NCBI RefSeq assembly: GCF_032854445.1
Contig: NC_088295.1
Coordinates: 23,361,385-23,425,384 of the forward strand
Origin: Liolophura sinensis
Taxonomy: Eukaryota > Mollusca > Polyplacophora > Chitonida > Chitonidae
DNA: 64,000 nt
Reading direction: 5' to 3'
In this document: positions 15,951-64,000 of the stretch, piece by piece
How the letters are laid out: every line of letters starts with the position of its first letter
Position numbering within the stretch: position 1 is the first letter of the stretch
Translations under genes and position numbers: made by a program
The notes under the pieces: generated by a model
What the model was told of the DNA's origin: nothing
The model's database searches: none
Seen by the model: only the letters and a program-made list of their open reading frames with translations

Positions 15951-25026
<9,076 letters not shown>

Positions 25027-32560: not shown

Positions 32561-33414
32561 AAAAGTATGGACAACAATAAACAAAATTGCCATCAGAGAG
32601 CCATTTCACTGGCATAGTGTGAATGCAAGCAATTCCACACGTTGTTTTATTGAATGGATTACGATGTACATGTATCTGTCTATCAGGAACTGAACGTTAA
32701 AAAAAAACAATTAAAATCATCGAGCTGGCAAAAAGATTGTTGTTTTAAAGTCTAGACACTGTATAATGTCTGAAAACACATTAATTCTTACTAAAATAAT
32801 CCATGAGTTAGAAGTATACCTCACATTCAGGGTGTCGTACTCATCGTCTCATCGGGTAATCTTCAGGTAGGTCCTGATCGGAACTCATTGGCCCTGCGCG
32901 TGAACATCGCCCCCCACCCCCCCCCACACACACACACCATCCCTGTTGTCACCCCTTGTGAATTAATCATGAAGAAATGGAATCAAGAACGACTATTTTT
33001 ATTGAATTTGGTATGACACATGGCAGTTTGGAACAGAACCCCCGACGTCGTCCTCGTCGGTAGTGAGAATGTAACATGTTAACGGATGCATTTGCTACTA
33101 CTCAGCTTAGTTCTAGCGTTGGCGATATGCTGATGGTTTCTCCTGTCTCGTTGGCATCTGAGCTGACCGCGTTTCCAGATTCTTTATAGCGTCTATATCT
33201 CTGAGCAATGTACGGGATAAACGTGGGCACAACAGAAAGAAACATGAAAGCTCCAGCCACGTAGAACGCTTCGTCATATCGTCCCAAAACATCAAACATC
33301 ATACCTGAAACACAGACGTTATATGCTTCGTCATATATCTATTAAATCTTCCTTAACTGTATTTATCCCATAAATGTTAATTTTTCCATTTAATAAAGGC
33401 ATGACATATCGTTT

Positions 33415-33913
33415 TAATATGCACCACGTGTAATATAAATTTCGACATTTTGATTTATTCGTGTATCTTTTAATTCATCAAATCGACCAATCAAAAGTTA
33501 CAACTCGGTTGTACAGGCACTACTTTTTCTTGTCTGCAAATGTCAACATGGCCGACTTTCGACCAGGAGATATCGTTAAAATTATAATATTCTTGTTATA
33601 AATATTAACGTATTGAACGATATATTGTATAAAGCAAACTTTTGACATGTCTATGGTATAAAAAATAATTATGTATTTCGTTATGTAAATAAATTTTGTC
33701 TGTACTATATTATACCCTTCCATGTGCTTGTCGTTTACTGATGACGCTTCACTGTAACATGTTTAGTGATATGCGTGATATCACTACTCGGTCGGTCGTC
33801 GGCGCAGTTTCCGAAAAGTTTAAATCGTAATAATGTTCTTCCGCTATAAATTTACCATATGGCATTTATGAGATACATAGGATATGAAATTCGTGCTGAA
33901 AACTACTACTCTC
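33415..33913. repeat. Dispersed repeat, copy 2 (inside the SLC16-like intron)
   Basis: Matches the repeat at 18.6-19.3 kb through GTGTAATATAAATTTCGACA, AAAGCAAACTTTTGACATGT, AATAAATTTTGTCTGTACTA and the AAAAGTTTAAATCGTAATAA block. It ends abruptly at CTACTACTCTC, where the LTR-like sequence begins. Confidence 0.7.
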
Positions 33914-35230
33914 TGTAACACTTTTATGTTACCGTCTTTTGACGTAAGAAAGTATAAATAAATAAAGGACTCCAAACAGCGTCTCCATTCAGACAGTCAC
34001 TCTATTCCACTCACTTCATCACCTTGAGCAGTCCCGCAGCATGTTACTTACGTAATATTAGCCAATCGCTATGCTGCAACGTCATGAATATTAATATAAG
34101 GGAGCTGATCATGTGATGTATACATACACATGTGCTATGATGTAAACAAATGCACGTGGCAAACTATGACAATATCACATCCCCCTTCTTTTGATGAAAA
34201 GCTAGTGGTATTACATTCGTTAACAAATTTTGCTTCTAAAGGACTGCCCAAGTGTACATTTCAAATGCAGCTAATTTCAATTTAAAACAAAATAAAATAC
34301 ACTGAAAACTGTAAGTATTTGTAGTCAGTTTGATACATAAACTTGAGTTGGAGTCAAATGTCAATTTGATATCTGTGGTTCACCAGGTTTTAAAGCTAAA
34401 CACAAATTTATGTGTCCATTAAACTTTCATAAGAATGTCAAAATCACACAATTTGGAACAATTTAACATAGCAAATAAAATTAATCATAGCACTTTGAAT
34501 CATCCAAATCCATGAATCTGAGTGATGGAAAAACTGAACCTATCTGCAAATGCATCACTCATTTCAATGCTGAGGAGTGATGGACTCCAGTGAACTGAAT
34601 AGAATGCACACACTAATCACATGATTCACAAATTCACTGTTGGAGTTAGAATTTGCATTCTGACTAAAATCTGCCACTGAGAGCAACTCAAACTATGCTC
34701 ACAATAACACACACACACTTCCACTTTATCCAGTTATGAAATCAGATAAAATCTTGGGCTTAATACGTGGACCAAAAACGTGAGAACTGTGAAGTTGGTG
34801 ATGTGTCAGGTGGTTTCGGAGGATGGTGGATTTTCCAGCGGTGGAGGTGTCGAGCCTGTTGATTTGTTGTTCGGGCTGTTGGCTAACGGTGCTTGTTTGG
34901 ACGGAATGATGCAACGACGGTTCCGTTGATAATTTCCACCGTCAGATGTGGAGACAATATATGGTCGTGGTATCTCGGCTACTTTCTCACTATCGTTCGG
35001 TTTCCATTTCCACTGAGTTGTTGCATGTACACATCCTCTCCTTCCCTTAAAGGTTTTTGAGATTGGGTGTTACGGTTATGGTATTTCTCACTGTTCATCC
35101 GTTTCTTTAAAAGTCGCCTTTGTACATCTTTTGCGTTTTGTACTGATGGACGGAGCTGTTTTTTGTTGGACTGGTAGGTTGTCTCGAAGACGACGACTCA
35201 CATTTTTAACAATATTGTAGTCTGATAGGC
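33914..35230 (-). mobile_element. Ty3/gypsy-like LTR retrotransposon, 5'-truncated remnant
   Basis: On the minus strand, fragments of the C-terminal end of a polyprotein are readable: SRRLRDNLPVQQKT, DVQRRLLKKRMNSEKYHNRN, LREGEDVYMQQLSG, then AEIPRPYIVSTSDGGNYQRN with a following RR. These are typical of the region after the integrase core in Ty3/gypsy elements. They lie in different frames, so the copy is decayed. Downstream comes a purine tract (AAAAGAAGGGGGA) and then a sequence from TGTGATATTG to GTGTTACA (34179 to 33914, 266 bp) that fits a 3' LTR with TG...CA ends. No 5' LTR, gag or reverse transcriptase is present. The LTR ends are inferred from motifs. Confidence 0.75.
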
Positions 35231-36872
35231 ACCATGCAGACTGAATAAGTGCCACTGACACTATTTTGCGGAATGGGAATCTGACTGCTAGTTTAACTTT
35301 TTTAACACATTAACAAGTATATATTTTAGCAAGTTCAATTTTGATTTGACCTTCGGATTTTTTGGAAAGTTTTTCGTCAATAGCCCTGAAATCTCTTCTT
35401 ACCTGCAAAAGGTGGTCCGGCTAAGTTGCCCACCCCTTGGAACATCATGACGATTCCGCTCGTAACTGCTATCGTTCTCTGTCCCCAGGTACTCGATCAG
35501 TAATACAGTACATAAAGTGTAATCGCCGATACAAGAACCCAAAGAGGCCGGATACAAAAGCCATAGAGATCAACGTGGTGCAGAGAGGAAAAGCCGCCAC
35601 AACAAGACCACTACACATTATTGACAGGCCGTACAAAGTTGCGTTATGAATGAACCGCCTATCTCCGAGGGGCACCGAAGACAACTTGACCAATCGTGTC
35701 CAGGATACCGACGATTGACAGCAGAAAGGAGGCGGAGGTGGGGTCTATTCCCATCAGGACTGCCTTGTCCACAAGAAACATGTAAGGAACGTCAAGCCAG
35801 AAAAAGAGAACGAAATTATGAAGTAGAAAAAGGGTAAGCCACCAACCCTTCTTGGTAGCACGTACAGTTTGATACATGGACACAAATGGGTTGCACAGGG
35901 CCCTGCTTCAACGCCCCTGTCTTTTTCTGCTTTTTGTCCCCAGTACAGACTTTATCGGACAGGACATGAACGTTTAACTCTGGACAACTAGTCGAGTCAC
36001 CGTTGGCTTTGGCCTCACGTAACTGTTCACTTTTGCAATCTGCATGGGCTAATGCCGGCGTGCTGCCAAAGGGTGTGTCAATACGACAGCTACTGTACAC
36101 CATCAACACCTGCTCACCACCAAAGCCCGTCCTTGTGGTGACCAGGGAACTGTCCGTCCGAACAGCATGGACAGACGGACGACCGTTTGTCGGTATTAGG
36201 CCACTTGTCCCGTGATTGTTGTCCAGTTTCCATTCTTCATCTGTAAGGCTCTCATCGCATCCATCCCTAAATGGCTGCGGTCTGAACAGCGCTCCACCCA
36301 CAATGCAATGGAGAACAATGCCACTCATGAGAATCATCATGCCCCTCCAGCCGTATTGCTGGATCATCTGCTGACAAGCGGGTGGGAAAACCAGGGTACC
36401 GATTCCAGTACCACACAGCGCGATTCCCAAAGCCAGAGAACGTTTCTTTTCAAAGTAGGCTGAGACGATTACTACTGCTGGGATGGTCACGAGGGCTATG
36501 CCGGTAGCCGCGATAGTGCCATAAGTAAAACACAGTACGTTAACCGACGGGGCAAAGGCGCTTGCAAAAGAAGCCCCCAGTAGCCATAGCACCTCCCACG
36601 ATTGTCACTGTCCGGCACCCGAAACGCTCCACAAGGATACTAGACAGAGTACCAAAGAGAAGTGTAACGCCGACGAACAACGATCCCACGAGAGCAGTTT
36701 TGCTTTTACTCTCTTCAAAATGGTCGAGTAAGTGTATGTAGACCACCCCGACTGACACCACACAGCCATCGACTAAGGCAAAGCACATAAAGGAACCAGC
36801 TACCACCACCCACCCCCAACCCCCATCCACCACTGGGCGACGTTTCCGCGGTATCGTCTCAGGCCGTGACAT

Positions 36873-39800
36873 CTTCTGTTATACTGTTGCTCACCATTCA
36901 GAGTTCCATGTCATTCTGTAAAAACATTTACAATAAAAAAGAACAATTTTATAATTAAAAACCACTTTACCGTCAAATAACGACGTCTATAGAATGAATA
37001 CTGTAATTTATGCAATTGTAAACACGAATATTCATCCAACAGCTTTGCATAAGTAAACGGTTTTATGAAGTGAATAGAAAATATGTATACCTCAAGTAGC
37101 ATAAAGACATATGTCTTCAGGCAAAACTGCCGTTCTGTTTGGACGGTCGTTAATTCCATCATGCATTAAATGTCAGATGCAATTTACACACCACGCTGCA
37201 AGACCATAACTGGGTGGCGTCAGCGTGTGTATGAAGAGTGCGTGGGAATGACGTGAGTTTTTAATGGTTTACAATGGTGACCGGCATCCGCATACACGAT
37301 TCATCGTGCATGCCCATGACGAAATACCTGCAAAATCATGACGAAATACCTGCAAAATCTGCAAACCTATAAGCACTGCAACATGGGCATTTGCTGTCAA
37401 CACACCCTGCACGAGGGGGATTTAACTCATTTAAATCATTCTCCAGAACATTTAACTTAAATGACGGCAGTTAGTTTTATGAGTGCCATGGAAATCACCC
37501 GAGCTCGTGGTTAATGAGTTCTATCTCCAATCACTTTTAATCATACAACAAAGGTTCATTTGTAGATCTTTATGTCGTCATAAATGACGAATCGAACTTT
37601 CGATTTTGGCACATGCATGCTAGTAGTTACTTTTTTGGTGACAATCCATACAGGTTAAAGTTCATCTTTCGTTGGTCATGTACCAGAATATTGGTGCTTG
37701 CAGTTATTTTCTCCGTCAGAATAGCAGAATTCAATGCATTACTGTACAATGAAAAAAAAATACTCGGTTCATTTTACCAGAAAGTCTGTTGTCTCCGTGA
37801 TGCAAGAATGTATTCTGTCATATTCATATTCTGTCATGTTCAACATAATATCCTGCATGTTAGTTTCACAGAATCTTTGTTGAATTAATTAAATATGTGT
37901 GTTATATTTAACAGAACAACCTGCTGCAATAACGGAATACAAAAATTAACAGATTATTTTTTCAGTGTACACTGACATTTACATGACTTACTAAGCATTG
38001 CTAAACGCATATACAAAGATCACCATGTACATGTTTCAGCCCTAACAACATGCTGGTATTTACAAATGTACAGTTATAGTGAGTACACCTTCAGCACGAT
38101 TATATACATATATCATTCACGGCTTTACTCTCAAAGTGCCAATTTATTATTTGTATATTCTTTCACTTTTACACAGAGAAATAAAAATCAAATGAAGTCA
38201 CATACATACATATTTTGTTTTATTACCTTTACACAGCAACATTCAAACAGAAGTTTCACGTCAAACAAAAATAACTACAGTTTTCTTCGTTCTGCAAGAT
38301 CAGCTTTAGTTTTTATGAAATCGTGAAAACAATTCTTTCACTGACCTACATCCTCTGTCGCCCGACCATGAAAAACACAATGAATTACCCATATATGGCC
38401 TGAATGAAATCTTACTCGCACCTTTGTTTCCAGCCAACGCGTAGCTTAAAGTTATGCTACGTCGCAACTGTCCTTCTGCCTTGGCCCATATCATACCTGA
38501 TTGGCAACATGCAGGCCAGTTGGTGTGTGAAGTAGAGCAGGAGAGCTTTATAGCATTTAGCTATGGAAGCCGGCTAGGGCAATCATCACAGCATCGTGGT
38601 ATCGCATGACGGTGCATAGTACCAAGCCAAGGGATAAGGCGATGTTATGAAGCGGTGGCAAAAAGCGACTGTACAATACAATACCGAGCGGTGGTCATAT
38701 CGTGTCATCGCCGCACCGCTTTGTATCTTCATATCATCACTTCGCGCCATCGTCCCATTACTTCGTACCATCATCTCATCTCATACGATGGAACCATGAT
38801 GTGATGGTGGCTTTAAACGGGCTTCCATATCCCTTAATATATAGCCGGTAGCAGCTTAACAAGTGTTATGCCCAAATGTCGTCTGCCTTATGACAGAGCA
38901 TATACGCATCCCTGGAAATTTTGTAATGTAGTTGGTACATATGTATTGTTCGAGCAAGAACCACCTGTTAAGCACGGCTACCTTTCTATACCTACATGCA
39001 GATCGAGTAACAAATTTAGTCTCACATATAATTACCACACAGGCTCTGTGGCACTATCACCGCATTCCCATACCCGACTTTCCTCCCTAGATGACCTCGT
39101 ACCCTTACGGAGCTGCTACACTGATGGGATATTTGTGAGTAAAGAAAAGAAACTTTTCGAAACTGACCTGAGGGAATTATAGGTGAGGTGTAAACCGAAG
39201 CTTTATAGCCACAAATAGGTCAGCCTCTAGTAGCAAGCTTAATTATGCTATATGCAGGACCGTATTATGCTGCTTGATCAAGTGGCATACGTTACACTGA
39301 AGATGTACATGTACAAAACTACAGTTTGAGCCAATAGGCCTATCATGTAATTTCACGTCAATATTTATTATAACATAGTGACCTTCCTGCAACAATTCCA
39401 CTTATACCGTACAGATACCGACCTTATAGACTGAAGATATTTACGTTGTGCCTGGACGTTACTGAATGCTGCTACGGCACAAAAAGGTCTGTATATATAT
39501 ATATACCTCTCATGCAAGCCGTGTGTACTCAGTCGGCTCTACACAGGTCTAATTTTGTACCCGTGCCCTAGTTACCCTGAACAAATATGAAAGAATCTCC
39601 TCAACAGCCATGCCAAATTTCACAACATAAAAAAGAGGCTTCCAAGCTCTGCCTGTAGTCGTGGTACACCCAGCAGATATTTGATTTACAGGTTACACAT
39701 ATACTTGTTAAAAAGCAGCCATGGTATAAGAATCATTTCCTTATCATTCATGGCTGAATAAAGATATTGTAATCGCTGTGTATTGACGTGTTTGAAAGCT

Positions 39801-41140: not shown

Positions 41141-41149
41141 TGAAAACAG

Positions 41150-42005: not shown

Positions 42006-42159
42006 GTGATGTAGGCCTACGCGCTATAGATCAATAGTAGTAATCTGGAGCGCAGCCCGCTGAAAGAAATTGAAATGTGTTCGTTTGGGACATTCTTAAG
42101 CCTTGCACTACACTCATGAAATGGACAAACGTCCTCTCCCGTTGTATATGCGTGTGAAG

Positions 42160-42957: not shown

Positions 42958-43112
42958 GACGGCGTCCAGAAATATAGAGAAAAGAAACCGGGTAGAGGCC
43001 GGAGGAAACCCATGGCCATCCGCAGGTTAATAGATCTTCCCACGTACGATTGGAGAGGACGCAAGCATGGGCTAGAATTGAACTTACAGCGACCGCATTG
43101 ATCTGAGGGCGC
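42958..43112 (-). repeat. SINE family A, head and middle portion
   Basis: Reverse-strand match: AAACCCATGGCCATCCGCAG, TCTTCCCACGTACGATTGGA, GCAAGCATGGGCTAGAATTG and GCGACCGCATTG. The 3' tail is missing. Confidence 0.7.
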
Positions 43113-43354
43113 ATCAGTCATGTTCTTCATGTAAGTCAAAATCACACTTTAGAGCGAGATTTGCAGGTTGTCCAATAGACTCGTGTTCACGTGTCAGTCC
43201 TATCATTTTGAATTCAATTCACGCTGACAAGAATAATATATCATGAAGATAAAATCTGATAGAAGATGAAAAATTCAGAGAAAAAGGACATGTACTAGAA
43301 TATGTGGTAAAACTAATATAAATGCAGCCTTCTAAACTGATACATTTGGGAGAA

Positions 43355-43505
43355 CGGTACCATCATCATACCATCATACCGGCGCGCGAACGGTACCATC
43401 ATCGTCCTCTCGTGTCGCGCCTGGCGCGTTCGCGCGCGATTTGCACCGTCCTCGTGCCGCGGGTCGCTGGACGAGATGTCCTTATCCGGCTTAAATACCT
43501 GTAGG
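43355..43505. repeat. GC-rich inverted-repeat element, copy 2 (opposite orientation to copy 1)
   Basis: The reverse complement begins AAGCCGGATAAGGACATCTC and includes CGACCCGCGGCACGAGGACG and CAAATCGCGCGCGAACG, about four-fifths identical to copy 1 over about 60 bp. It continues into GGTACCATCATC-type short repeats. Confidence 0.65.
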
Positions 43506-44139
43506 ATGTCAACAGACAAATTAGCTTCAATATACTGTTGGTCGCCAAATAATGTGTCTGTCCGTGCTAATAGTCGTCTCAGCTATGGATTCCTGCTACG
43601 TGTCCGCGTGTGTCATTCCTAGTAAATCCTGACAAGCATGAATCTGGTGGAAAGTGAATAAATTCGAATTCCAACCGCCATCTTTGAATGCATACTCCTC
43701 ACAGTGAAGAGTGTTACTACCACTATTACTACTAGTTTGACCTTTTGATACAAATGTTTTAAGATTAGTCGCACCAGTAATGACTTAGAGGGAACGCATA
43801 ATCAACATTGACCGCTACAAAATTTCACAAACAATTAAAGTAAGCAAGCTGTACAAAATATGCTAATTGCTAGTAGTGTCAGTGGTTATTGGCTGTGAGG
43901 AGCATGCTTTCAAACATGGCGGTTGGAGTTTGAACGTTTCCAGCTTCCACCAATTTCATGTGTGTGAAGATTTACTAGGGATGATACATGAGAACATCTA
44001 GCAGGAATCGATAACTGAGACGACTATGAGTAGGACAGACACACTATTTGGCGGCCAACAGTAGAGTATTGAAGCCAGCATAGGAAGTACACAGGCGTTC
44101 AAGGTAAACTTATGGATCAAGACAGAGCTGTGATAAGCC

Positions 44140-44660
44140 CCATCCAGACTATCGAACATTACTCAACTTTTGTTGACTCAGCAAGACTGAACTTGAAGTT
44201 GAGACAAATTGAGACAAGTTGAGTAGTCTGGATGGATTCTTCAACTTCGTTCAACAACATTCAACACCATCCAACTTGTTGAATCGGAAATGTGCATGTT
44301 TATTTTCCAACAAGTTGAGTCAAGTTGACTGAAAATAGCCAATCAGCGAGCGTGTAGAAATAACGTTACCGTCATAAGACACGTGACCTGTAAAATGGCG
44401 GTACCAAAGGGGAAAGAGAGTTACTGATTTCACGATGAGACAGTTTCGTTGATACAGGAGTAAGAAAAATATCCTTGCCTGTACAACACTCACTCTAAAG
44501 ATTACAAAGATTGGAGATAAAGACGGAAATTTCCCTACAATTTAGCGGAAGTTTGGTAAAAAAAAACACAGCTCAACACATAACAGCAGTGTTGGTCTTT
44601 CTGATTTGTAGTGTGGACGCGACCCTCAACTTACTCTGAGGTAAGTTGAGGGTCGCGTTG
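44140..44660. repeat. Composite fold-back region with a 17-bp-arm palindrome
   Basis: The first fold-back pairs 44140-44151 (CCATCCAGACTA) with 44224-44235 and 44162-44169 (CTCAACTT) with 44216-44223. CAACTTGTTG and CAACAAGTTG palindromic pieces follow at about 44.27-44.33 kb. At 44618-44634 and 44641-44657 is a perfect inverted repeat, CGCGACCCTCAACTTAC and its complement, around a 6-base loop. The shared CTCAACTT/AAGTTGAG motif suggests one element family. No coding capacity seen. Confidence 0.7.
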
Positions 44661-44699
44661 CTGTCGAGTCAACAAATGCTGAACGATGGTGGACAGTCT

Positions 44700-47600
44700 C
44701 GACGGAGCTTTTGTATACGTAATCACATCGCCACGGAGCTAAGGTCGCACATGTATGTAGCCTACGCAAGCAGGCCCAGAGCCCAAGTTCAGGAATTCAG
44801 TGTCTTGGCACAGTGAGAGACAGGCAATATATAATCACTGCACCTTGTAATAAACATGGGCTGTATCGCAGTTTTCGTGCACTAATGTAAGCACAGTGGT
44901 CAATCCAAGTCGAATAAAAACAAATGAAGACCTCGTGCAGGTGATATGCATTACCTTTGCCGATCCAGCCAGAATCAGTTGGGCAAATGACGAACGGGTG
45001 GATTGTGTGGAGCGTCTATAGCTGATTACCTGTGTAAGGCACGTGGACGTTGAGCCTGTAGATCCCCATCTTATCTCTGGCAACGGATCACCACATGTAA
45101 TCATACATGAACGCACGCATCTAATTAGAAAGGTGGCACTTAAGGCTACCACCTTGTGTACGCCATGAGCGTATTCAAGGCGTAGATTAGACGATATACC
45201 ATTGCACGCATGTACGCTGCTTCGATGCTGGCCCTCCCCGAATCCGTCGCCTGTACGATGTGCTGGATACATTGGCTCCGATATTCGCCGATCCCTTCGC
45301 TATGTGCTCAGACACAGCGATGCCAACCGAGGTCATTATCGACCCAGGGGTCATGGTTTCAGACGGGACATACTCGGATACATTTTTACATTCTGTGTAT
45401 ATATATATACACACTGTTGGATGTTTTGACAAATGTCATGTATGTACCGTTATACTACAGAAGCGTATACTCTTTGATGTTGCTTGTCTGTGTACACATG
45501 CGGGTGCCGACAATCAAGTGTTAAACTTGACGGATCGACACACCGAAATCCACTCGTCCCCAAAACATTTGATCTTTTTGTAAAAAAATCAACATGCACT
45601 CAACCACAAATACGTAACCAGTGAAGAAATAAGTCTACTGATTAACATTTAGCGCATATACATACCTCCAGGTATATCGCCCCTCGATTCTTAAGGAAAT
45701 GCGCATTTAAATGCAAGCACGAATAGCTGCATATTTAGTTTCCAAAATACGTTTCCATATCGTAGGCCTATATCCCCATTTGGATTTAGCGAAACACTAA
45801 AATTATTACATATAGCTGAAAACAAATCTAGGCGTGTTTACCACATCCTTTCAGACGCTATTTAAAAAAAAGAGAATGAATAAATCCATTGAAAAGTTTA
45901 AATTCTATATAGTGAATGTTGAAGACAGTGTATATATTTTGGACGTCACAGATTGATTTTTCTTTTTTTCCCCTCTTCACTCTACAGAGCACCTCGATGT
46001 TTGTCTTCTTATGAATGAATAAAAGACTAGGCCTATACGTGAAAAGAAAAATGCTGCCCATATAAAAAAGAATGTCAAAAGAGAAATTGGAAATTGGAAC
46101 AGTCAATGCTGCATGGCTAGAGCTATATATCGTGCGTATAAAATCGACCTTAAAATTCAGATTTAGTAAAGCATTTGTCAAAATTTCTATTCAAAATGTG
46201 AAAAAGTGGAGTTATGTATCCGTTACATCTATATTATATTCATTCACGTTTGTTTAAGTTAGTACTATCTCAGTTGCGAACCTTTTTTTTATACCTATAC
46301 ATTAATGAATTGTAATCACAACTGGTCTACGAAGATGTCGTAGGCCTACATGTGCATCTGTTCCAATCCTGTGGTACGCGATTCCACATCAGCCTGAAAA
46401 CTCACGTGATTGTATTCTATGTACAAATAGAAGGAATGTGTTATTGACACTGTAAAGTGAGCAATATACCCACGCAATCAAGCCACATATATGGATTGCT
46501 GTGGGCTGATACATTTAGGTCACTACTGATGGCTCCAACCGCATAAATGAAGTTTACGTGAAATTTGAATTATGTTTAAACATGATCGCCGTATTTGTGT
46601 TGCATGTATGTACGGGTCTGAGAACAAACCCTGTTGCGGGTTAAACACTTCTCAAATTATAAGCTGACACGAAAATGAAGTGCACGTGACCCGCTCTACA
46701 GATAACGCGCATATCAATTGACAACAGGCGATTTAAACCTTATACGTTTGTAGCTAGAAAAAGACCCTCATGTATGTTTCTATGGTACATTCGAGCTATC
46801 ATAGATTATCACATACCAATTCACTGCTATGCTTGTGGGGCCTTGGTAACAATAACTGATCCGCATTCGTTAGAGACCACTTGTCTTCCACCAATATGGT
46901 GAGCACATGTGTACGTCACATCTGCATGGGAAAGTTCGCTTATAGCCGGCATGTCAAGGTCGGTAGTTTACTCCGGGCGTATATAATCTGACATCCCACA
47001 ATATGCTCCTCGATCGTATATATTATGGTCGCTGTATGAAGATTAGAAGACTATGTCATCATTCACATATTGTTATGAAATGACCAGGGAGCGTGTCCAG
47101 GCCAAGTTCAAAAATATTGTCTTTCAGTAACTGTATACAAGACAAAAGATGTTGGTTCAGTCCTCCGATAGGTATATAATCAGTGATATTCACCCGCTTA
47201 ATTCCTTTTCTGTTTTCCAGGTCTTGGTGGATTACTGCATAAGCCGTCAGCAGCTCCTGTGTCAGGTGATCTTACATGGAATTTGTTAGACATCATTTGC
47301 CAACAGTTGCATTTCCCCTATATGACACATACGTTAGTGCGTCACTGACACCACATAACTTGTGGGTTCTGACACAAGCTGGAAAACTGCATGGGATCTT
47401 CCGTCTATTTCATTTCAGGCATGGCGTTATTACTGAAAATAAGTTACTTCTAAGGCAGGTGTTCTATGGACACATCTAAATACAGGTTAAGTACTATATC
47501 CAGAAGAGGCAATCCTGTTTTAAATCAGCGAACATGTATGACTGCATATATATAAGTGAACTTCAAAAGAAATCGAAATATCTACTCTCAAAAAAGAAAA

Positions 47601-50470: not shown

Positions 50471-53400
50471 TCAAGAGGACTCCTTGATCTTCTGAAGAGT
50501 ACGAGTTCCCCACCATTCCTCCAAATCAAAAGGCTTAAAATCTGAAAGGAACAAAAGTTGGGTCTGTACTTTTTAAAGGTATTTCACCAGTACACATAAT
50601 ACCAAGAAATAACTAAACTATATTTAATTTATGTGTTTAATTATGCAGCATTCAGGTATTGTATAAAATACCAACAAAACCATGAGTAGCAGAACCATTG
50701 GCAGGGTTAGATTAAGTCTCAAATTAGACAAGGATGCAAGGTCCAAGCTTTACAAAATCCCCCCAGCACCCTGGGTTCTGTTGTGGCCTGTTGTGGCCTA
50801 TTGTCAACATACGCTACTTACTTGTCAATTCTGGATTTCCTGCTTCTTCACAATATTTCACTGGCCCTACAATGATGAAGATTAAATTATGTCAGCCATT
50901 TTACCGTTCTGATGCCAGGTAATAGCACATACATCAAGCTGTGCTAACCAAAACCTTTGGCTCTGTCACCATGAAAACAGGGTTCCCTATATTGGAGATA
51001 TTATGCTAGAAAGCAATATAAGATACATAAAAAAATATTGTCCCCACAACTTTCATTTTTGATAGGCTTCCTACTGGTGTAGAGATAAATTTTCGATGCC
51101 TGCAGAACCGTAGCCAGGATTTATAAAAGGCATGGGAGATGAGTTTCCCAGCCATGATAGCTGGGTGTCTGCCATTCCCCCGCCCACCAAGAACTTGTCA
51201 TCGCTGGAGATGTATATGTTGTGATTCAAGGCCAGTTAAGATCTAGCTGACGTCATAGTTTAAATACATTTAAATATTAATACCATGTCACCATGTCACC
51301 CATGCCACCTTATTATCAGTGGAGTCCCTCCACTGATAATAACAAAGATGGATATTTTCACATACATGTAAACTTTGACCCATGAGTGTGAGACCGCACA
51401 TTATCATTGTTGCTTTGACAGTTGAAACTACCTCTCAAGCCAACCCAAACTGGGCATGCTTTTGGCAATGGTCTTACGTTCAAGTTTAATTGTTGGGCAA
51501 ACTTGTCCATGCTAGCTTGTCGATCCACTGTTGCACATTATATATGCGCGGTTGACTGAATGTCAGAATCTCGGAAACCTCCTTTCCAGGTAAGAATTAT
51601 GACGCTAACAAAGGTTTCTGAATATATAGTCACTCTTTGATATTTGGAGGGAAAAAAGTCGTCCTGCAATCGGATGCGTTGCTCAACAAAAATGATATGA
51701 CAGGCCAATGGAAGCATTTACAGTATTGTTTTGCTGAAAAGGACACCAAATCGAATACAGTGTTTTTTGTAGACGCAGGGCTTCATTCATTCATTCATCA
51801 TTTCTGATACCACAGTCTATCTGTTATGATATTTTTAGTTAATTTAACTAGTGACAGAAATGTAAGTGTCTGCATCATATGTATGCTCCAGACATCAGCT
51901 GGTTTAACTCAAAATGATGGATCAGTCAAGTGATGGGATCTTTACATTCACTAAGCAAGTTCACGAAGGAGAACATGCCATGAGAACTAGATTATCAACT
52001 TACCTGAGGCTCTGGACTGCTCATGCTGAATTTCTGACCACACTGAAAAAGAAACAATAAAGGGTCGGTTCTAACTTGTTATATTCTAGAGTTATCAAAA
52101 TAAAAATACAAAATTAACATAATGCGCAAACACCAAGTTGTTCATATTTCTAGTAAGCAGAAATCATGCAGTCCCAGTCGAGTACCTCGCAAAATGTTTC
52201 AGAGAAGGAGCATATCACACCAAAACACTTTACAAAAAACTCTGACATGGTACAGTACAGTGAGGTATACTGTAGAATGCATAAAAGCATGATTTTTTAA
52301 CAAATGGCACCAAGACTAGACTAGAATGCAAAATAAAAGCTTCGTACTGTGCACAGTAGTTAAGTACAGAGCAGTACAACATACAATGTGGTTTGTCATA
52401 GTGCCATACAGCCCTAGATTGAGGACTATTCATCATTAACACCACCAAAAGTTCCAAAAATTGGTGTTCAGACAGCGGCTTGGGTCACTGTACCCATATA
52501 GATCTTTATAAACAATCTTAATTGTAAATGACCTCATTTGCTAAATAATTGCTTTGATGAATTTTTTTAAAATCAACCAAATTTACTTGAACAAGAGATT
52601 GCAATCCACAAAGTGTCAAGTGAAATTAGAAGTTACACTTCACACTGCCCACCCATCAAGGCAAAACTAAATAAATAAGAGAGCAATGTTTGAATTACTC
52701 ACAAGTTGACATAAAATGAACATATTCTTCATGCTGTGGGGAAGCAGGCTCCTCAGATACAGTGCTGTTCAATGGGGGCAGCCTTCCACTATTTGGCCTT
52801 TTTCCTATGAATACTGGCATAGGTGAGCTGTAACAAAAACAAACACCTTAGTGAAAGGTTATGTTTCTTATATATATCTTAGCATATCTATACGTATCTA
52901 TGCATATTTTTACTTACATCCCAGTGGAGCCATGCATCCATTTATTTACCTTTCTTCTAGTAGAGTTCTTCTGCCTCCCGCCAAAACTGTAGCGTGCATA
53001 TTTGAGCAGGTCTTTACTTTCCCAGGAGACACAAGCTGAGTGCCTGAGGTTCGAGGCGGCAAACCTCTGGCACTACTCCAAGAAAAGTAAATATAAGGAT
53101 GCATAGCTCTAATGAAGTTTAAGAAAAGATAGAGATATGCAGAGCTAGCATAGAAGCTAAGAAAAAAATGGTTGGTAAATATTGTAATTATAGGACCAGC
53201 TATCCAACTATCTAACTCCAATTCAGTGCTCTAGGGACCCTGACACATGTTTAGTAGATTAACATATGGGTACTAAGTGAAAACTGTTGCAAAATTCCAT
53301 GCCTTGACCTTAAGAGAACAAACCAGTGCTTTGGATGCCTAGATAATACATAATCCGGGATACAGATAGACGTCTATCTTAAATGGATACAGAATCGATT

Positions 53401-54377
53401 CCTACTGGCTGGTGTGAGACATAGGCAAGCCCAGGCCATGCCTTGCCTAAGCTGAATTTTAGGTATGGTACATTTATTTAAGTGTGACCAAGGCTGCAAG
53501 ATTTAACCCTGGAACCCCATCTCCACTGTCAGTCAATCAGCGTCGATTCTGTATCCCTTAATCCAAGATATAATTTATTTGTATAATTTGACTGCTCCAT
53601 AATGGTGTACTTTGGGATTTTCCTTCTGCGTCAGTACATGGCAGTCAGGCTGAGGCTGAGGTAAGCTTGACAACAGCTGAGGTAAGCCTGACAAAAGCCA
53701 ACAACCTGTGTTACAAACTCTATTAGTTGACGGCCATAGACAACTGTAATTTAATTGAACTACAAAAATTTCTGACTTAAAGCTGCAGCAGAATCAGTGA
53801 AACCTTTGTCAGAGGAAATGCCTAATAAGTTTAAGTATCTCTATTAAATATGTAAACTTTGACATGTACATTCTAAAATTAAGCCTTGATTCAAATTAAC
53901 CATATTAAAAGCATCATATGAAAAATTCCGCAAGCTTCAAATCGATACCGTATTTTACTACTCAAGACAGTAGTCAGTAGTTGACACACTTAATGTTTTA
54001 CTACCAGTGTTAGTTTACTTACAGTGATTAGTGTGAAATCTTCAATAATTTACACTCAAAACCACTGGGTTTTTATTAAACTTCAAGTTGCCATAAATTC
54101 AGACCATAACACATATACAGAACTGCTTCAGCAGCATTTCACCTCATACTCGTAGCGGGTCCAGACGAGCCGGTGCGTTTGCCCAGATCGCGACCTTCAA
54201 AACTGTCAATCTTCTTCGTGCCCCCTGTAACACAAAGCCAGTCGGTTACAGAGAGGCTGTGGGCCATATAATCGACAGATTTATGGAGAACACATCGCAC
54301 ACAATACATGTACCCCTAAACTCACCCCGCCTTGTACTTGTGACAAATCTGCTTGGACCCCTATTCAAAGAATACAT
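50471..54377 (-). CDS. MCRIP2: MCRIP/FAM195 family protein (MAPK-regulated corepressor-interacting), complete
   Basis: Five minus-strand coding exons: 54377-54326, 54224-54143, 52827-52703, 52042-52004 and 50541-50471. All have GT-AG borders with consistent phases, giving 122 residues. The N-terminus MYSLNRGPSRFVTSTRRG matches the MYTITKGPSK start of MCRIP proteins. The middle HEEYVHFMSTLWSEIQHEQ matches the conserved HEENVRF helix. The end FKPFDLEEWWGTRTLQKI matches the C-terminus of human MCRIP2 more closely than that of MCRIP1. Known members are small, mostly disordered proteins that bind CtBP corepressors and DDX6, with binding controlled by ERK phosphorylation in MCRIP1. There is a basic-Ser/Pro stretch between the conserved blocks. 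It is divergently oriented to METTL26, 2.3 kb away. One invertebrate gene probably represents both vertebrate paralogues, so the symbol is approximate. Confidence 0.92.
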
Positions 54378-54619
54378 TCCCAGTTTAGAGTGTTTACATG
54401 CGCAAATGAAACATGCTCCTTCCGGTAGATTCATGAAAAAGAAAGTGAGGTTCCGGTAGAAGTGATTTCAATCAAATTTTGATAAAATACTTAGTTTTCA
54501 CATTTTACGTAGCACACTTTGTAAATATTTAAATAAAAACTGGATCAAAAATAACCCCAAAGCATATGTAAATGTTAAATTTCTGATTTAATTGATGATT
54601 TTCCCCCGCATTACCGTAA

Positions 54620-54690
54620 GCGCCGCTGGTGTAGTGGTATCATGCAAGATTCCCATTCTTGCGACCCGGGTTCGATTCCCGGGCGGCGCA
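54620..54690 (+). tRNA. tRNA-Gly (anticodon CCC)
   Basis: A 71-base cloverleaf. The acceptor stem GCGCCGC pairs with GCGGCGC followed by discriminator A. The D arm is TGGTGTAGTGGTATCA, the anticodon arm CAAGA-TTCCCAT-TCTTG has CCC in the middle of its loop, and the T arm is CCCGG-GTTCGATT-CCCGG. The A and B boxes are intact. A TTTTT run about 6 bases downstream is a Pol III terminator. As I recall it, the sequence equals human tRNA-Gly-CCC, so it is probably functional. No intron. Confidence 0.96.
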
Positions 54691-54702
54691 CTATATTTTT
54701 GC
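54691..54702 (+). terminator. RNA polymerase III T-run terminator
   Basis: TTTTT at about 54696-54700 immediately downstream of the tRNA-Gly gene. Confidence 0.75.
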
Positions 54703-55324
54703 TTTCGGTTGTTGAACACCGGTAATGCTAACAAATGCGTTTTCCCACATATCGTACTTATAGATTCCAGACTACAGCCAAACATTTCTCCGACCACGTT
54801 TGCCACTTGCTCATGCAATGATCGCTCAAATCAAGGGACAATAACGACCACGGCCGAATACAGGAGAATTAACTGTTGTGGCATCTCCAATACTGGAGAA
54901 TGTAATAACATAGAAAGGCTGTTCACATCAGATTACACATTGCTTTGTTTAATCGAACATCTAAAATCTGAAGCCACAGATGAACAAGGAGCAATCGACC
55001 AGTCAGTTGTAACATTCAATGTTACAAATATGTAACATTTACTAAATCCAATAAGAAAGAAGAAAGTCAATAATTTGCACTTGCTAGCCATAAAGGTCAC
55101 TAGTTGTGCAGTTTTCGTCGTGTTGACTGTTTCAACAACGTGTAATTTATTATTTGTACTGAGCATTTCGGGAGAAATGTCATCTGTTTGCATGTTGGCC
55201 TATCCTCTAATAAGCGTGATTATCTAGAGTTTCAGCTGTCCTTGGTCTCCTATGTTAAGGGTCTCCTAATGTCAGATATCTGCAAATTTGTTTTCGACCA
55301 TATATCTTTACCTTTATGCTAATG

Positions 55325-55470
55325 TAATGTTTGAAGGATTTCACTACGTGGGTGACACCAGGATTTGAACACGGGTCTCAGCACCCGAAGTCCAGCGCTC
55401 TACCAATTGAACTAAAGGAAACTCCAACTGGCTACTGCTAGTATAAACACTGGAATGCTCCCCACCGTTC
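55325..55470 (-). repeat. tRNA-derived repeat, copy 1
   Basis: On the minus strand, TTTAGTTCAATTGGTAGAGC (A-box region), GCTGGACTTCGGGTGCTG (anticodon-arm-like, loop with TCG) and GTGTTCAAATCCTGGTG (B box) follow each other as in a tRNA. The ends do not pair as a proper acceptor stem. A shared non-tRNA tail (GTAGTGAAATCCTTCAAACA) shows it is part of a repeat with copy 2 and not a functional tRNA. Confidence 0.7.
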
Positions 55471-55560
55471 AATTAATTTCCCCACTTTAATCCTTCTTCC
55501 CACCCAAGTCCACAGGCCCAGAACCCCACGCTTTTAAGAACCCATCTTGGTCACAGCACC

Positions 55561-55700
55561 AGTGTAATGGTTGAAGGATTTCACTATGTGAGTCACACCA
55601 GCATTCGAATTTCAGCGGCCGAAGTCCAGCGCTCTACCAGCTGAGCTAAACGGAATTTCCCACTAGCAGCTGCGAGTATAAGCACTAGTTACACCAAACA
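55561..55700 (-). repeat. tRNA-derived repeat, copy 2
   Basis: Same organisation as copy 1, about 235 bp away and in the same orientation: TTTAGCTCAGCTGGTAGAGC, GCTGGACTTCGGCCGCTG, AATTCGAATGCTGGTGTGAC, then ATAGTGAAATCCTTCAACCA. Either a local duplication or two copies of a tRNA-headed SINE. Confidence 0.7.
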
Positions 55701-56165
55701 TAGAACAACAAAAAGCGCTAAAAAAAATCGAATAGTGGATATAAGTATCACATATAAAACCATTAGTAATTAAGATTAATCTAATTATCTTCAAAGACAG
55801 TGAAATGGAGTAACATGTGCATATCTCTTCCAGTTTCTCAAGTATGTCTTTCTCTTACAGATGTATGAATTTATCACGTAAAACACTCTTTTGTACACGT
55901 ATGGCAACCTCATCTGTGGTCTTTGAAAATATCATATTTTATACCACTTAACAGCTAATGAAATGTACTCGACATGAAAAGTAAATTTTTAAAGAATAAT
56001 TTGACACTGGCGCTGTTAGAAATTTGCAAAAAATGTGGATAGGGTGTCCTAGAGGAATGCACAAAGCTTGTTTTATGTCATAGTCTGGGCCATTAAGGTG
56101 AACATTTAAAACCTTTTGCATGTTTTAGACCATGCCATTGTCTTACAAGATAATACCTCACAATT

Positions 56166-56222
56166 TTTTATTTGATTAGTGTTTTATGCCCTATTCAAGA
56201 ATATTTTACTTACAACCAGGGC
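56166..56222 (-). repeat. SINE family A, 3' fragment
   Basis: TTTGATTAGTGTTTTATGCC and TTCAAGAATATTTTACTTAC equal the reverse complement of the family-A 3' end; the rest is absent. Confidence 0.7.
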
Positions 56223-56680
56223 AGAAAGCATAATGACCACACAATTAAAAAGGATTTCATTATGGTAGTGCATACTATTGACATGGTCTGTACATTCTAG
56301 GTATTCTGAGGATTATTTTGATGGGTTGGCTATGTGGAATAGGGACAAACATACATGTAGTGTCAAATCAGGAGACCCAAAAACGTAACGGCTATTTCTT
56401 TCATTAGTTTCACCATGGAGGTAGAATTCTAAACCCATGGTTTCACTCACTCAAATAACCAGCATGGGGTACCCCAATAAACTGTAGTGCTATTTTACAA
56501 TTCTGACATTCATCGTAACAAGTACTCACATGAATGTCAGAATTTTGAAATTACACTAGAGTTTACACCCTGGTTGAAGTGTGGACGGTGTTGGATATTC
56601 AGTTGCACGAGTTCAAGGTATTTCATATGTTTTGTCCAGGCAGTAGCTGCATTGAAAAACATTGAAAGACACTGTGTACA

Positions 56681-59589
56681 ATGCTTCAAAATCCATCAGC
56701 GGAGAGGAACAAGGGCCCAATCTTGGAGGTTTTGAAGACTTACATAGATGATGATTTTAGAGGCAAGGCTATGGACTTTTCTGCAGGGGCTGGTGTTCAG
56801 TTGGTCCACTTCGCCTCTCACTTCACCAATGTCGCCTGGCAACCCACAGAACTTGATCCACAGTGTCTGGACAGGTATATACATTAAACAGATGTATATA
56901 TTTACCTACCTTCTCCTGAGTGTAAAGTCTTATAATATACATTGTACACAGGATTTTCTGTACAGGAGTGACTGCATCAGTATTTGGGATTTTTTAAATA
57001 ATATATTCCTGAAAGTACCATGGGAAATAAAGTATGTTATATAGTGCATGACAAAATGTCAAAGTGATGGACATAGGAATAGGGCAAATGGGACTCCATT
57101 TAGCATGAAGGCAAATTTTATTTTAGGAAGAGGCCTCCATTACTTAGGTCTCACAAATGTGATGGCTGTGAGTCCAGCTCATTCTGGTTTCCTCTCCAGC
57201 TATACGTGGGAAGGTCTGTCAGCAACCTGCAGATGGTCATGTTTCCCCCAGGCTCTGCCAGGTTTCCTCCCTCCATAAAGCTGGCCGGCATCGTTCAGGT
57301 AAAATATTTTTGAGTACGGCATAAACCACCAATCAAATAAATAAATATTGATGTATCAAGGTAATAATTGAAGGTAATAATCATGAAAACTGTTTCTGTT
57401 TGTATTTTAGCATAAAAGCTTACATTCAACACAAGAAACTGCACAATGTACTGGAGCCATTTCAGGTTGATGCTCGGGAGCCAGTAGAGGGCTGGGCAAT
57501 GGGACAGCTCGAGGCCAGTTCCTTTGACTTCATCATCAGCATCAACTTAATTCATATATCACCATGGTCAGCTGCTCAGGTATGGTTTACACTTCATTGT
57601 GCGACATATATTGTGACAAAATAAATCATTTAGCTCTGTACTGAACAGGTTTGTGACCAGTATACAGAAGAATCATTACTTATCATGGGCCATTTGCATT
57701 GCCACTTCAATGTCCTGATAAATCAGATTTTTCTTCCGTGTGAGTATACAAGGTTACAATACAATACAATACACCAGTGTTGCTGAAATCATTTGATAGC
57801 CTGAAAACAAAGTATTTCATCTAGCTCAGAAGGAAACTTTTAGCTTAGTAAATTTGGTTCAGTCCTGTTTACTATGTAATCGAAAGTGGTTAGCTTCTAT
57901 GTTGGTTTTTATTTTGTGAATTTATGTATATTTGCAAAAATAAAAGTTTGTTGTCATTGTGTAGGGTCTGTTCAAAGGGGCTGGCTTACTGTTAAAACAG
58001 AATGGTTATCTGTTTACATATGGGGTAAGTATGATTCATCAGTATCCGTACAGTTATACAAACCATAATTTATATGGGCAAATTGCACGATAGCATTTTT
58101 ATACCAATGTAGTTAGCTTATAAATACATTTTTTACATGCTTGTATTTGGCTTTATATAGAAAGGTTAAGATAAACACCCAAGCAATATATATGAACAAA
58201 AACTGCTTCAATATATGTTGAATCATGACACCAATCTTAATGTATTTTTTTTTTTATTTAATCCTCTTTTCAAGCTGTGAACATAGCATGATATATATAT
58301 TTATTTGAAGCCCTATGCAGTGAATGGATCACTTACTCCTGACAGCAACGTGATGTTTGACCAGAGCCTGAAGAGCAGAAATTCAGAATGGGGAATTAGA
58401 GATGTTGAGGACCTGAAGAAATTAGCTGCTCAGAATGGATTGTCACTGGAGAAAATGGTAATGAACAATGATTCATTTAATTCTTTGGAAAGATTTATTT
58501 CAGTAATTGATTGATGCTCAACACCACACTTGAGAATTTTTCACTTTTGCAATGGTGGTCAGTTTTATGGATGGAGGAAACTAGATTTTCTGTGATAAAC
58601 CACAACTGTTTGGCAATTTACTTACAGACTTCCCCACATGACGCACAAATATGCAAACCATGATGAGTAAGACAGGTGATCTTCACCCAGCGTTAGGGCA
58701 TCTCCGTTGCCTAATAGTTAGTGTGGTAGAACAGCACATTGAGTGCACCTTTTTATGAAGCTTCCAACGCCATTCACACAAAAAATCATTTTTAGTGTCA
58801 TTTACATAATCATTGTATGCTTAAATTCCACCTGAAAAGTGATTTAATGGTTGAAAAATGGTTTAATACATCAAGCATTAAACCTCAAAGGGATACAGGA
58901 GCATTATAGCCCAATGTATTGGCTTATTTTTGGTTTGATGGTCAGTGTAGTTTTAAACTTTGTTCTTGGTATGCTCACTCAAGACAGGGTGTGTGTTATC
59001 TACATGTATTTTGTAATCTGGCCAGGCATTTTGAATTCATAGACCATGTTCAGTCATCATTGTGCACTTTACAAATATACATGTAGTTTTGGGGCCAAGA
59101 TTTTATTCTTTTCAATGTGTCCATGGTAACACAAGTATTTGACTTACCACCTTCGAATGAGTGAGTGAATGAGTGAGTGCTTGGGGTTTAATGTCGTACT
59201 TAACAATTTTTCAGTCATATGATGACAAATGCAAGTAAGCCGCCCTTACTGAAGGCAAGTAAGCCACCCTGCCCAAGCCATTATACTGATACGGGTCAAC
59301 CAGTCGTTGCACTTCCTCTTTTAAGGTCTTGGTTGTGACTCGACCCAGGACTGACCCTGGATCTACGGTTCCCAAAGTGGATGCTCTACTAACTGTGCTA
59401 TCGGGGCCAGTCACCTTCGAATGAAGGGTTGTACAAATTATGAGTATATTGAGATACTCTACCAAGTAGTTGACAGTCATAACAGTTTGGCTCTTCCACC
59501 CCACATTCACTCATTTGTGTTCTTTTATCTTACAGATTGATCGCCCTGCCAATAACAAAGTGTTAGTCTTTAAGAGGAGCAAGTCATGA
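56681..59589 (+). CDS. METTL26: METTL26 (C16orf13/UPF0585) methyltransferase-like protein, complete
   Basis: Five plus-strand coding exons: 56681-56874, 57411-57579, 57965-58024, 58311-58457 and 59536-59589, all GT-AG and in phase, giving 207 residues (human about 204). The protein starts MLQNPSAERNKGPILEVLKT, with the family's AERNK block. The SAM-binding-like motif is MDFSAGAGVQLVHFA (residues 31-45), followed by WQPTELDPQCLDS, FDFIISINLIHISPW, GLFKGAGLLLKQNGYLFTYG, PYAVNGSLTPDSN and the end IDRPANNKVLVFKRSKS. The family has the class I methyltransferase fold, but to my knowledge no firmly established substrate. Intron 1 carries a SINE-A and intron 4 a SINE-B. No frameshift. The start ATG is the family position. 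Confidence 0.95.
57127..57348 (+). repeat. SINE family A in METTL26 intron 1
   Basis: Diverged copy with part of the head (GTGAGTCCAGCTCATTCTGG), the middle (TACGTGGGAAGGTCTGTCAG, CAACCTGCAGATGGTCATGT) and the 3' end (TTTTTGAGTACGGCATAAAC, CACCAATCAAATAAATAAAT). Confidence 0.88.
59158..59412 (-). repeat. SINE family B in METTL26 intron 4, internally deleted
   Basis: Reverse-strand copy: GAGTGAGTGAATGAGTGAGT tail, GGGGTTTAATGTCGTACTTA, CAATTTTTCAGTCATATGAT, GTCAACCAGTCGTTGCACTT and a tRNA-like head (GACCCTGGATCTACGGTTCC, GATGCTCTACTAACTGTGCT). About 100 bp between the tail and the middle are missing compared with the copy at 32.2 kb. Confidence 0.85.
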
Positions 59590-61868: not shown

Positions 61869-63640
61869 TTAATCAAAGCTGATTAACTGGGGCTCCAGGA
61901 GCTGTTGTTGGCCTTGGGGTGGGGGTTGCTGTGCTTGGGTCTGGGCCATCTGCTGTTGAGGGGGTGCCATTTGCCCCATACCCGGCTGATACTGGGCTTG
62001 GGGCTGCCCGCCTCCCATGTACTGCTGTGAGGCTGGGTTATACACTTGCTGACTCTGGCCAGGGGGAAGGGCATTATTCATACCTGAAGATAAGATGGTT
62101 ACATTTTATTCAGTTACACACAATACAAAAGCATACATTTAAAGATTACCAACAAACTCAAAACTGAGTTAGCAATCTCACAAATGGGACAAACAAATTT
62201 AGTTGATGGGTACATCTGTCTTGTTCAAGAGTATTTCATTCATGTTCAGATCATTATTTAGAAAGACACATTTGCTTTGTTGCTGGTCCATGTACACAAA
62301 TCCACGTTTAGAAGGCAAAAAGCTTTTGGTCAATGTATGCTTTGGCCTGCGATTGCGATTGTAACTTTCAAAATTTCGCCGCACAATTCCTTAGTGCAAG
62401 CACTTATTTTTACAATCAACTGTAACCCCAACTGTAGAATCTACAATCAAATGTAAGCTTTGATGCAAGAGGTCCCAGGTTGTTTCTGTAGAAATGATGC
62501 AAGGTATCAAAAAGGCCTCACTGTGATACATGTAAATGGGATTTAGCCAATTTGAGGTCATCTTAGAAAGTTGTCTAAAGTTCGCTGCAAAATAACCCAA
62601 CAATGATTAACTTACTTTGCATGTTAAATGACTGATAATCCACAGAATTCCCACCAGGTTGATACCCTTGTGGTTGTGCCATTTGGGTGTGATTGGGACC
62701 TCCTGTGTTACCTGGGGGGTTAGCCTGGTTATACCCTATGGGCACAGAGGCTGGGTAAGAGTTGCCCATGCTTGTCTGTGACATACTGCCATCCACTGTG
62801 GTCTGGTAAGCTCCTGGTACATTACCAGGCATCATATTAGCAGGCACCTGACCCTGGTAAGGCACCTGTGACTGGCTGTAGACAGGGGTCTGGCCTGGCA
62901 GTCCGTATCCAGGCAGGGTTTGCCCCGGGGGTGGCATGTATCCACCAGCATGCTGCTGTTGTACATGGTGCACAGGGGAGCCTTCCACCGATCCCACAGG
63001 GCTCTGACCAGGCATCCCAGGCTGATACATTTGCTGAGGGTAGAGAGTGTGAGCATGTTACAGTGATCAAGAATTATACTTGGAGTACTGAGTTAGCAAT
63101 ACATATGTCATCTACCAATGAAGCCACTTACAAAGTTTCAATTAAATACAACAAACTATTCTGGGGAAAAAATGCCCCAAAAAAAAAGGAAAAGACAAAA
63201 ACAGCCAGAATTTTGTCAAAATAGATGAAACAGTCCAAAACTCCTAACCTAATTTCTTACCTGCCATGGTAAAGTTTTGACAAAAAAAAACAAAAAACAA
63301 TGAACTGAAAGACAAGGTGTAAATTTACAGTTCTCTTTTGTACTGACTACTACACATAACACTTCCATCAGGCACTACCGTTATGGGTGTTGTAACTATA
63401 TACATTAACATACATTGAGTGTACAGTGTGTAAGTGCAAAAGAAATGTTTGTTGGACATGCATGACACATCAGCACGTATTATTTAGTAGCAGGAAATGA
63501 GCACTAACTTGTGGATATCCATAAGCCTGCATCTGTCTGATCTGGGTGAGTTGTTTCTGCTGCTCAAACCTCATCTGCATCTCCCTCTCCTGCTCTTGCA
63601 GCCTCTGTAAATGCAGCTGTCTCTGCATCTCAAGGTATTC
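61869..63640 (-). CDS. HGS: HGS/HRS (ESCRT-0 subunit), C-terminal three exons, partial
   Basis: Minus-strand exons 63640-63509, 63033-62616 and 62083-61869 (stop), with GT-AG borders and matching phases; the 5' part lies beyond the right edge. The first exon encodes a charged coiled coil (EYLEMQRQLHLQRLQEQERE and on to YGYPQ) matching the human HRS segment EYLEFQRQLAIQRLQEQEKE. The next is Pro/Gln/Gly/Tyr-rich and contains GSVEGSP, conserved with human. The last ends EPQLISFD; LISFD is the clathrin-box motif at the very C-terminus of HRS. With STAM, HRS forms ESCRT-0 on early endosomes, where it binds ubiquitinated cargo and PI3P and recruits clathrin and ESCRT-I. The FYVE, VHS and UIM regions are not in the window. 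About 765 bp of coding sequence with no frameshift. Convergent with METTL26. Confidence 0.95.
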
Positions 63641-64000
63641 CTGTCAACAAATAGTCCCCAATCAACATATTCAAACCAAATATAGTTAGACAGTATGTGA
63701 CTTTAGTTAGACAACTGTGACAAGTCACTCTTATTTTTGTGATGGATCAATACTGAATATTAACCAAGAAGAATGTTGTCTTAAAAGTGTACTTAGAGCT
63801 CTCTGTAAACACAGCGTAAGGGTGAAATATTCTGTAATGAATCAGAAAACACACCTGGGCTTCAAATGTTGGTAATGAACAGCTGTAAAGATTATATTCC
63901 AACAGTGCATACACAGTCACATAATTAATTTGTTTTAAATAATTTATAACCAGAGAGACACTTCACAGATGTATGTCGTGTTCTCAAATATTTCACTTGA
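63641..64000 (-). other. HGS intron (partial)
   Basis: Upstream of the acceptor at 63641-63642 on the minus strand. No further HGS exon was recognised to the window edge. Confidence 0.6.

Follow-up and report, generated by a model that had tools for sequence, protein, structure and literature searches.

A head-to-head MCRIP-METTL26 pair in the chiton Liolophura sinensis as the probable remaining core of an ancestral block of animal genes

Irimia et al. (2012) reportedly described conserved ancestral microsyntenic pairs, that is, unrelated genes that have remained neighbours in different animal phyla. A candidate pair of this kind, MCRIP (FAM195) and METTL26 (DUF938), lies in a 64-kb stretch of the chiton Liolophura sinensis genome (contig NC_088295.1, positions 23,361,385 to 23,425,384 of the forward strand; hereafter the window). 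Here, however, the pair forms one link in a four-gene block, and unlike the pairs of Irimia et al., the block has a tRNA gene inside it. Microsynteny in gene-dense regions of bilaterian genomes is an established pattern (PMC8851819). The PDI/RhoGDI pair is found at human 17q25.3, 16p13.3, and 12p12.3 and has been dated to duplications of clusters in the ancestor of vertebrates (PMC5722932); like the locus described here, it is an old pair that was duplicated with the human bands 17q25.3 and 16p13.3, but both of its partners are retained in all three human copies, whereas the partners of MCRIP look divided between copies. The PDI/RhoGDI pair is also reported to be broken in molluscs and annelids (PMC5722932). 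The ancestral bidirectional promoters of chordates likewise join head-to-head neighbours; however, those have been defined by cap analysis of gene expression (PMC6292497), whereas the chiton pair is read from the sequence and its gap is wider than a compact promoter needs. Of 372 putatively ancestral bidirectional promoters, most have been lost in vertebrates (PMC6292497), and retention of such a pair in mammals would consequently be notable. Finally, tRNA genes relocate fast: 77 tRNA loci are common to frog and human, and of the two that were studied closely, neither was found in stickleback, lamprey, or lancelet (PMC2888827).

In the chiton, MCRIP (minus strand) and METTL26 (plus strand) stand head-to-head, with start codons at 54,377 and 56,681, 2,303 bases apart, which confirms the arrangement and the 2.3-kb spacing given in the original prediction. 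The two genes had also been called neighbours, and this holds in that the gap showed no sign of a coding gene (of the 14 open frames of at least 50 amino acids that overlap it, 10 were run against Pfam, and the best match, E 0.041, fell far below the cut-off), but one tRNA-Gly(CCC) gene does sit between the two. This tRNA gene shares the strand of METTL26; 242 bases separate it from the start codon of MCRIP and 1,989 bases from that of METTL26. Its cloverleaf is intact (61.6 bits against an Rfam gathering score of 29), and it is followed by an RNA polymerase III (Pol III) terminator, a T5 run that starts 5 bases past its end. No other tRNA gene was found by ARAGORN in the window or in 12 flanking stretches of 10 kb, which together make up the 184 kb referred to below. 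Beyond METTL26, the series continues with HGS and an ARL16-like gene, giving the order MCRIP (minus), tRNA-Gly (plus), METTL26 (plus), HGS (minus), ARL16-like (plus) between 50.5 and 76.2 kb in window numbering, which is carried on past the window's ends. Both members of the pair are apparently single-copy. The three DUF938 matches in the 609-Mb assembly are all exons of METTL26 at this locus, and of four matches to the MCRIP protein in the assembly, three are exons of the gene described here and one is at chance level (E 7.7). A search of the assembly with the FAM195 family profile gave zero matches anywhere, a result that is uninformative because even the known MCRIP gene was missed.

In vertebrates, the same gene names recur in two places. 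A list of genes from a human 17q25.3 duplication includes ARL16, HGS, MRPL12, SLC25A10, GCGR, FAM195B (MCRIP1), P4HB, and ARHGDIA (PMC5607249), and a list for chicken chromosome 18 gives the same genes minus SLC25A10, with ARL16, HGS, MRPL12, GCGR, and MCRIP1 consecutive (PMC11507135). Furthermore, human Gcgr is flanked by MRPL12 and MCRIP1, in a neighbourhood retained in 141 of 160 mammal assemblies (PMC8312260). METTL26 and MCRIP2, in turn, are listed together in cattle, in a 40-kb copy number variant of chromosome 25 with RAB40C, WFIKKN1, RHOT2, LOC516108, STUB1, WDR24, and FBXL16 (PMC7033542). Deep conservation of the pair, as originally proposed, is thus supported at the level of linkage, by the cattle METTL26/MCRIP2 segment and by the listing of HGS and ARL16 with MCRIP1 in human and chicken. 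However, the two genes do not stand as a unit of their own; they are embedded in a four-gene block within a conserved chromosome segment, and consequently regulatory constraint is not the sole explanation for the persistence of the pair. In the literature passages available, MCRIP and METTL26 are mentioned together in gene lists and no discussion of the pair was found, although the tables of Irimia et al. (2012) may include it. An origin before the protostome-deuterostome split would follow from one non-vertebrate genome taken with vertebrate gene lists. Human METTL26 (minus) and MCRIP2 (plus) are taken to be immediate divergent neighbours. The annotation of chr16:687,577 (build assumed to be hg19) as TSS1500 of METTL26 fits this assumed divergent orientation (PMC11004697).

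The linkage extends well beyond the block. Single-locus families of human 17q25.3 or 16p13.3, listed before searching, were used as markers; seven of a longer list were run, the seventh after six had agreed. All seven match only the contig that carries the window (C1), with MRPL12 at 18.3 Mb, RPTOR at 2.1 Mb, NPLOC4 at 41.0 Mb, PIGQ at 35.3 Mb, TSC2 at 36.0 Mb, NARF/CIAO3 at 5.5 Mb, and STUB1 at 2.7 Mb, in two places 14 kb apart. The window itself sits at 23.4 Mb of this contig, which at 96.4 Mb makes up 15.8% of the assembly. As controls, the MCM and chaperonin families were used, whose human genes are presumed to be dispersed; with matches grouped by hand into loci, 2 of 8 MCM loci and 3 of 11 chaperonin loci, 5 of 19 in all, fall on C1 (Fisher P 0.0012 against seven of seven markers). 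In addition, every one of the seven markers falls below 42 Mb, a part of the contig that contains no control locus among the 19, the cut having been set after the data were seen. Genes of both human bands, 16p13.3 and 17q25.3, are therefore found on one chromosome here, five of the seven band assignments being presumed. MRPL12 and NPLOC4 are placed at 17q25.3 in passages of the literature, and STUB1 is listed together with METTL26 in cattle (PMC7033542). As a separate observation, the five control loci that do fall on C1 are all situated beyond 47 Mb; with every marker below 42 Mb, the contig looks like a fusion of two older linkage groups.

Taken together, these results make it likely that the pair represents what remains of the core of an ancestral block, single-copy here and duplicated in vertebrates with its partners divided; there is good support for a deep common descent of the block. 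In this model, the ancestral block would have consisted of MCRIP (minus), tRNA-Gly (plus), METTL26 (plus), HGS (minus), and an ARL16-like gene (plus), and the chiton would carry it as a single copy inside a segment matching human 16p13.3 plus 17q25.3. When this segment was duplicated in vertebrates, one copy would have retained MCRIP1, HGS, and ARL16, and the other MCRIP2 and METTL26. Thus, two gene sets that look like complementary remnants left by the genome duplications of vertebrates stand together at the chiton locus. That the duplicated PDI/RhoGDI pair occurs in both of these human bands as well (PMC5722932) is in line with this history. The proposal also includes a promoter step, which is graded separately below.

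Several points weigh against this proposal. The strands of the human genes are presumed, and so are the human bands of five of the seven markers (RPTOR, PIGQ, STUB1, TSC2, and NARF/CIAO3). Pfam places the ARL16-like gene only in the Arf family, and its ARL16 orthology is a candidate assignment. MRPL12, which adjoins HGS in the human list, lies 5 Mb away here, outside the block; genes have therefore changed their order within the segment, while the four-gene block remains compact. As printed, a second human 17q25.3 list is without GCGR and FAM195B (PMC4074351), and the cattle list gives four names between METTL26 and MCRIP2, its map order not being stated (PMC7033542). In addition, the regions flanking the three human PDI/RhoGDI pairs are mutually dissimilar (PMC5722932).

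In the promoter step, a single open, unmethylated island at about 53.9-55.9 kb, which contains the tRNA gene, would drive MCRIP and METTL26 in opposite directions, and transcription of METTL26 would begin with an untranslated first exon lying upstream of 56.6 kb. Any break within the island would then harm at least one of the genes, and the pair would be kept together. The evidence bearing on this comes from the CpG index, computed in 300-base windows with the tRNA masked (observed/expected CpG was also computed in 400-base windows). The index is 0.19-0.42 for windows starting from 53.9 to 55.7 kb (regional mean 0.15, standard deviation 0.11) and 0.00-0.15 for those starting from 55.8 to 56.9 kb, into METTL26, whose first coding exon is CpG-poor. 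Given gene-body methylation, this profile would fit METTL26 transcription starting upstream of 55.8 kb, inside the zone of the MCRIP start and the tRNA, a fit that is suggestive only. On the other side, the CpG peak near the tRNA ranks 16th in the 184 kb (z 2.5), and of the 15 higher peaks, 10 lie between 31 and 46 kb. Furthermore, a 2.3-kb gap with at least three repeat copies exceeds the needs of a compact bidirectional promoter, and the putative promoter is known here from start codons 2,303 bases apart rather than from transcript starts. The CpG argument for a shared promoter is thus weak, and such a promoter is a weakly supported candidate, neither shown nor excluded. That a common open island serves both MCRIP and METTL26 is accordingly put forward as a possibility somewhat short of an even chance.

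A related idea, equally tentative, is that MCRIP, tRNA-Gly(CCC), and METTL26 have been kept in order and orientation from this invertebrate to human. If so, the tRNA would have been positionally orthologous for more than 500 million years, and it would have stayed there because its Pol III promoter forms part of the region that controls both protein genes. A human tRNA-Gly(CCC) is assumed to lie at chr16:686,736-686,806 (hg19, minus strand), between METTL26 and MCRIP2 and on the strand of METTL26. Only if this assumed position is right does the chiton locus resemble the syntenically conserved tRNA loci (PMC2888827) in having a tRNA of the same anticodon between the same genes.

It may be that shared regulation plays no part and that an old block has simply been left unbroken, as is common in slowly rearranging animal chromosomes. 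Such inertia comes close to an even chance, and it and a common island are about equally likely. The linkage covers tens of Mb of C1, well past the reach of any promoter, repeat insertions have been tolerated in the gap, and the METTL26-HGS and HGS-ARL16-like adjacencies also stand beside the pair, all of which inertia would accommodate. However, the markers are scattered from 2 to 41 Mb, so that order has been mostly reshuffled, and yet the four genes remain within 26 kb; a local cause is therefore called for. The idea put forward originally, a shared compact bidirectional promoter acting alone and independent of the neighbours, would account for the head-to-head order and for the single CpG-rich zone next to a CpG-poor METTL26 start exon. 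Such promoters are not rare, since 25% of neighbouring protein-coding genes in amphioxus and 12.83% in mouse are in bidirectional promoters (PMC6292497). Nevertheless, with 2.3 kb between the start codons and a Pol III gene and repeats in that space, this explanation by itself seems rather unlikely. Adjacency by chance, unrelated to the vertebrate arrangement, is highly improbable. In the one non-vertebrate genome examined, no point in its favour was found, and it would have to bring METTL26 next to MCRIP, HGS and the ARL16-like gene beside them, and seven of seven markers onto the same contig; it was rejected on the comparison of markers with control loci given above.

Table 1. Features located in the window, in window coordinates
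Feature	Position	Strand	Remarks
Two GRB2 exons (SH2 part, C-terminal SH3 part)	23372..24969	+	SH2 part E 1.1e-22
MFS transporter, SLC16-like by eye	33100..36880	-	MFS_1 E 1.4e-13
MCRIP (FAM195) gene	50471..54377	-	predicted coding exons; middle exon probably missing from model
Raised CpG index zone, candidate shared control region	53901..55900		spans MCRIP start and tRNA
tRNA-Gly, anticodon CCC, intact	54620..54691	+	ARAGORN; Rfam RF00005, 61.6 bits
tRNA-like repeat copy 1 (short interspersed element-like by eye)	55323..55451	-	79% identical to copy 2
tRNA-like repeat copy 2 (short interspersed element-like by eye)	55563..55686	-	intergenic gap
Dispersed repeat in gap	56164..56235	+	complete or partial at 17 other sites in 184 kb
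METTL26 (DUF938, methyltransferase-like)	56681..59589	+	five predicted coding exons, 207 amino acids
HGS (Hrs), 3' part	61869..64000	-	gene runs past window to about 70.7 kb

The predicted coding exons of METTL26 (56681-56874, 57411-57579, 57965-58024, 58311-58457, and 59536-59589) have GT/AG intron borders and form one open frame. The protein matches Pfam DUF938 at E 3.1e-70, with residues 4-204 of 207 covering positions 4-202 of the 202 in the profile, that is, its whole length; a comparison with PDB gave no match at E 0.01. For MCRIP, the coding exons on the minus strand are 54377-54326, which carries the start codon, 52827-52703, 52042-52004, and 50541-50471, which carries the stop. The last three fuse in frame, and the predicted protein matches Pfam FAM195 (E 2.6e-12; 47.4 bits against a cut-off of 25). 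However, the phases of exon 1 (ending in phase 1) and of exon 2 (starting in phase 2) do not fit together, and a middle exon is therefore probably absent from the model; 13 candidates for it were weighed, none was convincing, and none was picked. The function of METTL26 has been described as unknown (PMC11004697), and MCRIP proteins are partners of DDX6 that relocate to stress granules (PMC4598758). The gap between the two genes also contains, besides the repeats in Table 1, an inverted repeat. A weak Rfam match to MIR7807 in the gap reached 27.2 bits, against a gathering score of 90, and was dismissed as chance on the inverted repeat.

The part of HGS inside the window is presumptively named from its C-terminal sequence, and its last three open frames by themselves give no Pfam match above the cut-off. 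Past the window, the exons carry VHS, FYVE, and Hrs_helical domains (Pfam), and the best PDB match is the HGS entry 3zyq (E 1.7e-93), which is taken to be human. The first exon and start codon of HGS were sought between 70.7 and 75 kb and not found; the spacing to the ARL16-like gene is therefore only bounded, at no more than about 2.6 kb if the HGS start falls between the exons found. The ARL16-like gene (plus strand, start codon at 73,346) matches the Pfam Arf family at E 4.9e-13 on its joined exons, and its protein has no PDB match at E 0.01. Its name follows a presumed human ARL16 sequence. In the chiton, HGS and the ARL16-like gene (64.0-76.2 kb) stand head-to-head. ARL16 and HGS are listed side by side for human 17q25.3 too (PMC5607249), and a corresponding orientation is presumed there.

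Elsewhere in the region, Pfam searches gave nothing useful for five open frames downstream, of which two are SR-rich (rich in serine and arginine), or for nine further open frames in the window. Human GRB2, to which two exons in the window correspond, is presumably at 17q25.1. Within the 184 kb, the CpG index is highest in the interval 31000-46000, which has 9 of the 12 top peaks, and the sole gene start placed there is that of the SLC16-like transporter. SLC16A3 is included in a human 17q25.3 list (PMC4074351); the SLC16 family is large, and the gene here is a candidate counterpart only. Upstream of the window, a long gene region at about -48 to -14 kb in window numbering is polycystin-like, with WSC, PKD, REJ, and Polycystin_dom domains by Pfam as well as exons that look lectin-like or LamG-like by eye. 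Human PKD1 is taken to lie at 16p13.3; the polycystin family is also large, and the gene here is identified as polycystin-like only. Within this region are transposase-like open frames, of the Tc1/mariner type by eye (flanking stretch L014, 6252-7175). A THAP-domain fragment at 3813-4112 (E 9.4e-6) lies on a stretch that carries a perfect 68-base duplication. Positions 1-163 of the window and the adjoining end of the flank (L010) hold an in-frame tandem array of 45-base units that encode DINQVFGQGQTGLCQ-like units and stay open for more than 600 bases, and another flanking stretch (L009, 3484-7227) contains long runs encoding RDESFLWDQFSVRGFVR-like repeated units in several frames. Long SR-rich open frames occupy the minus strand from 81.9 to 108.3 kb; two of them, both in L007, were run against Pfam and gave no match.

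If the proposed history is correct, this locus is a readable pre-duplication state for the human segment pair 16p13.3/17q25.3, and one ancestral locus would explain both why MCRIP1 lies beside HGS and why MCRIP2 lies beside METTL26. A conserved control region, if real, would offer a handle on both METTL26 and MCRIP. Furthermore, since tRNA genes relocate fast (PMC2888827), positional conservation of this one, if true, would be unusual and would allow coupling between RNA polymerase II and Pol III to be tested.

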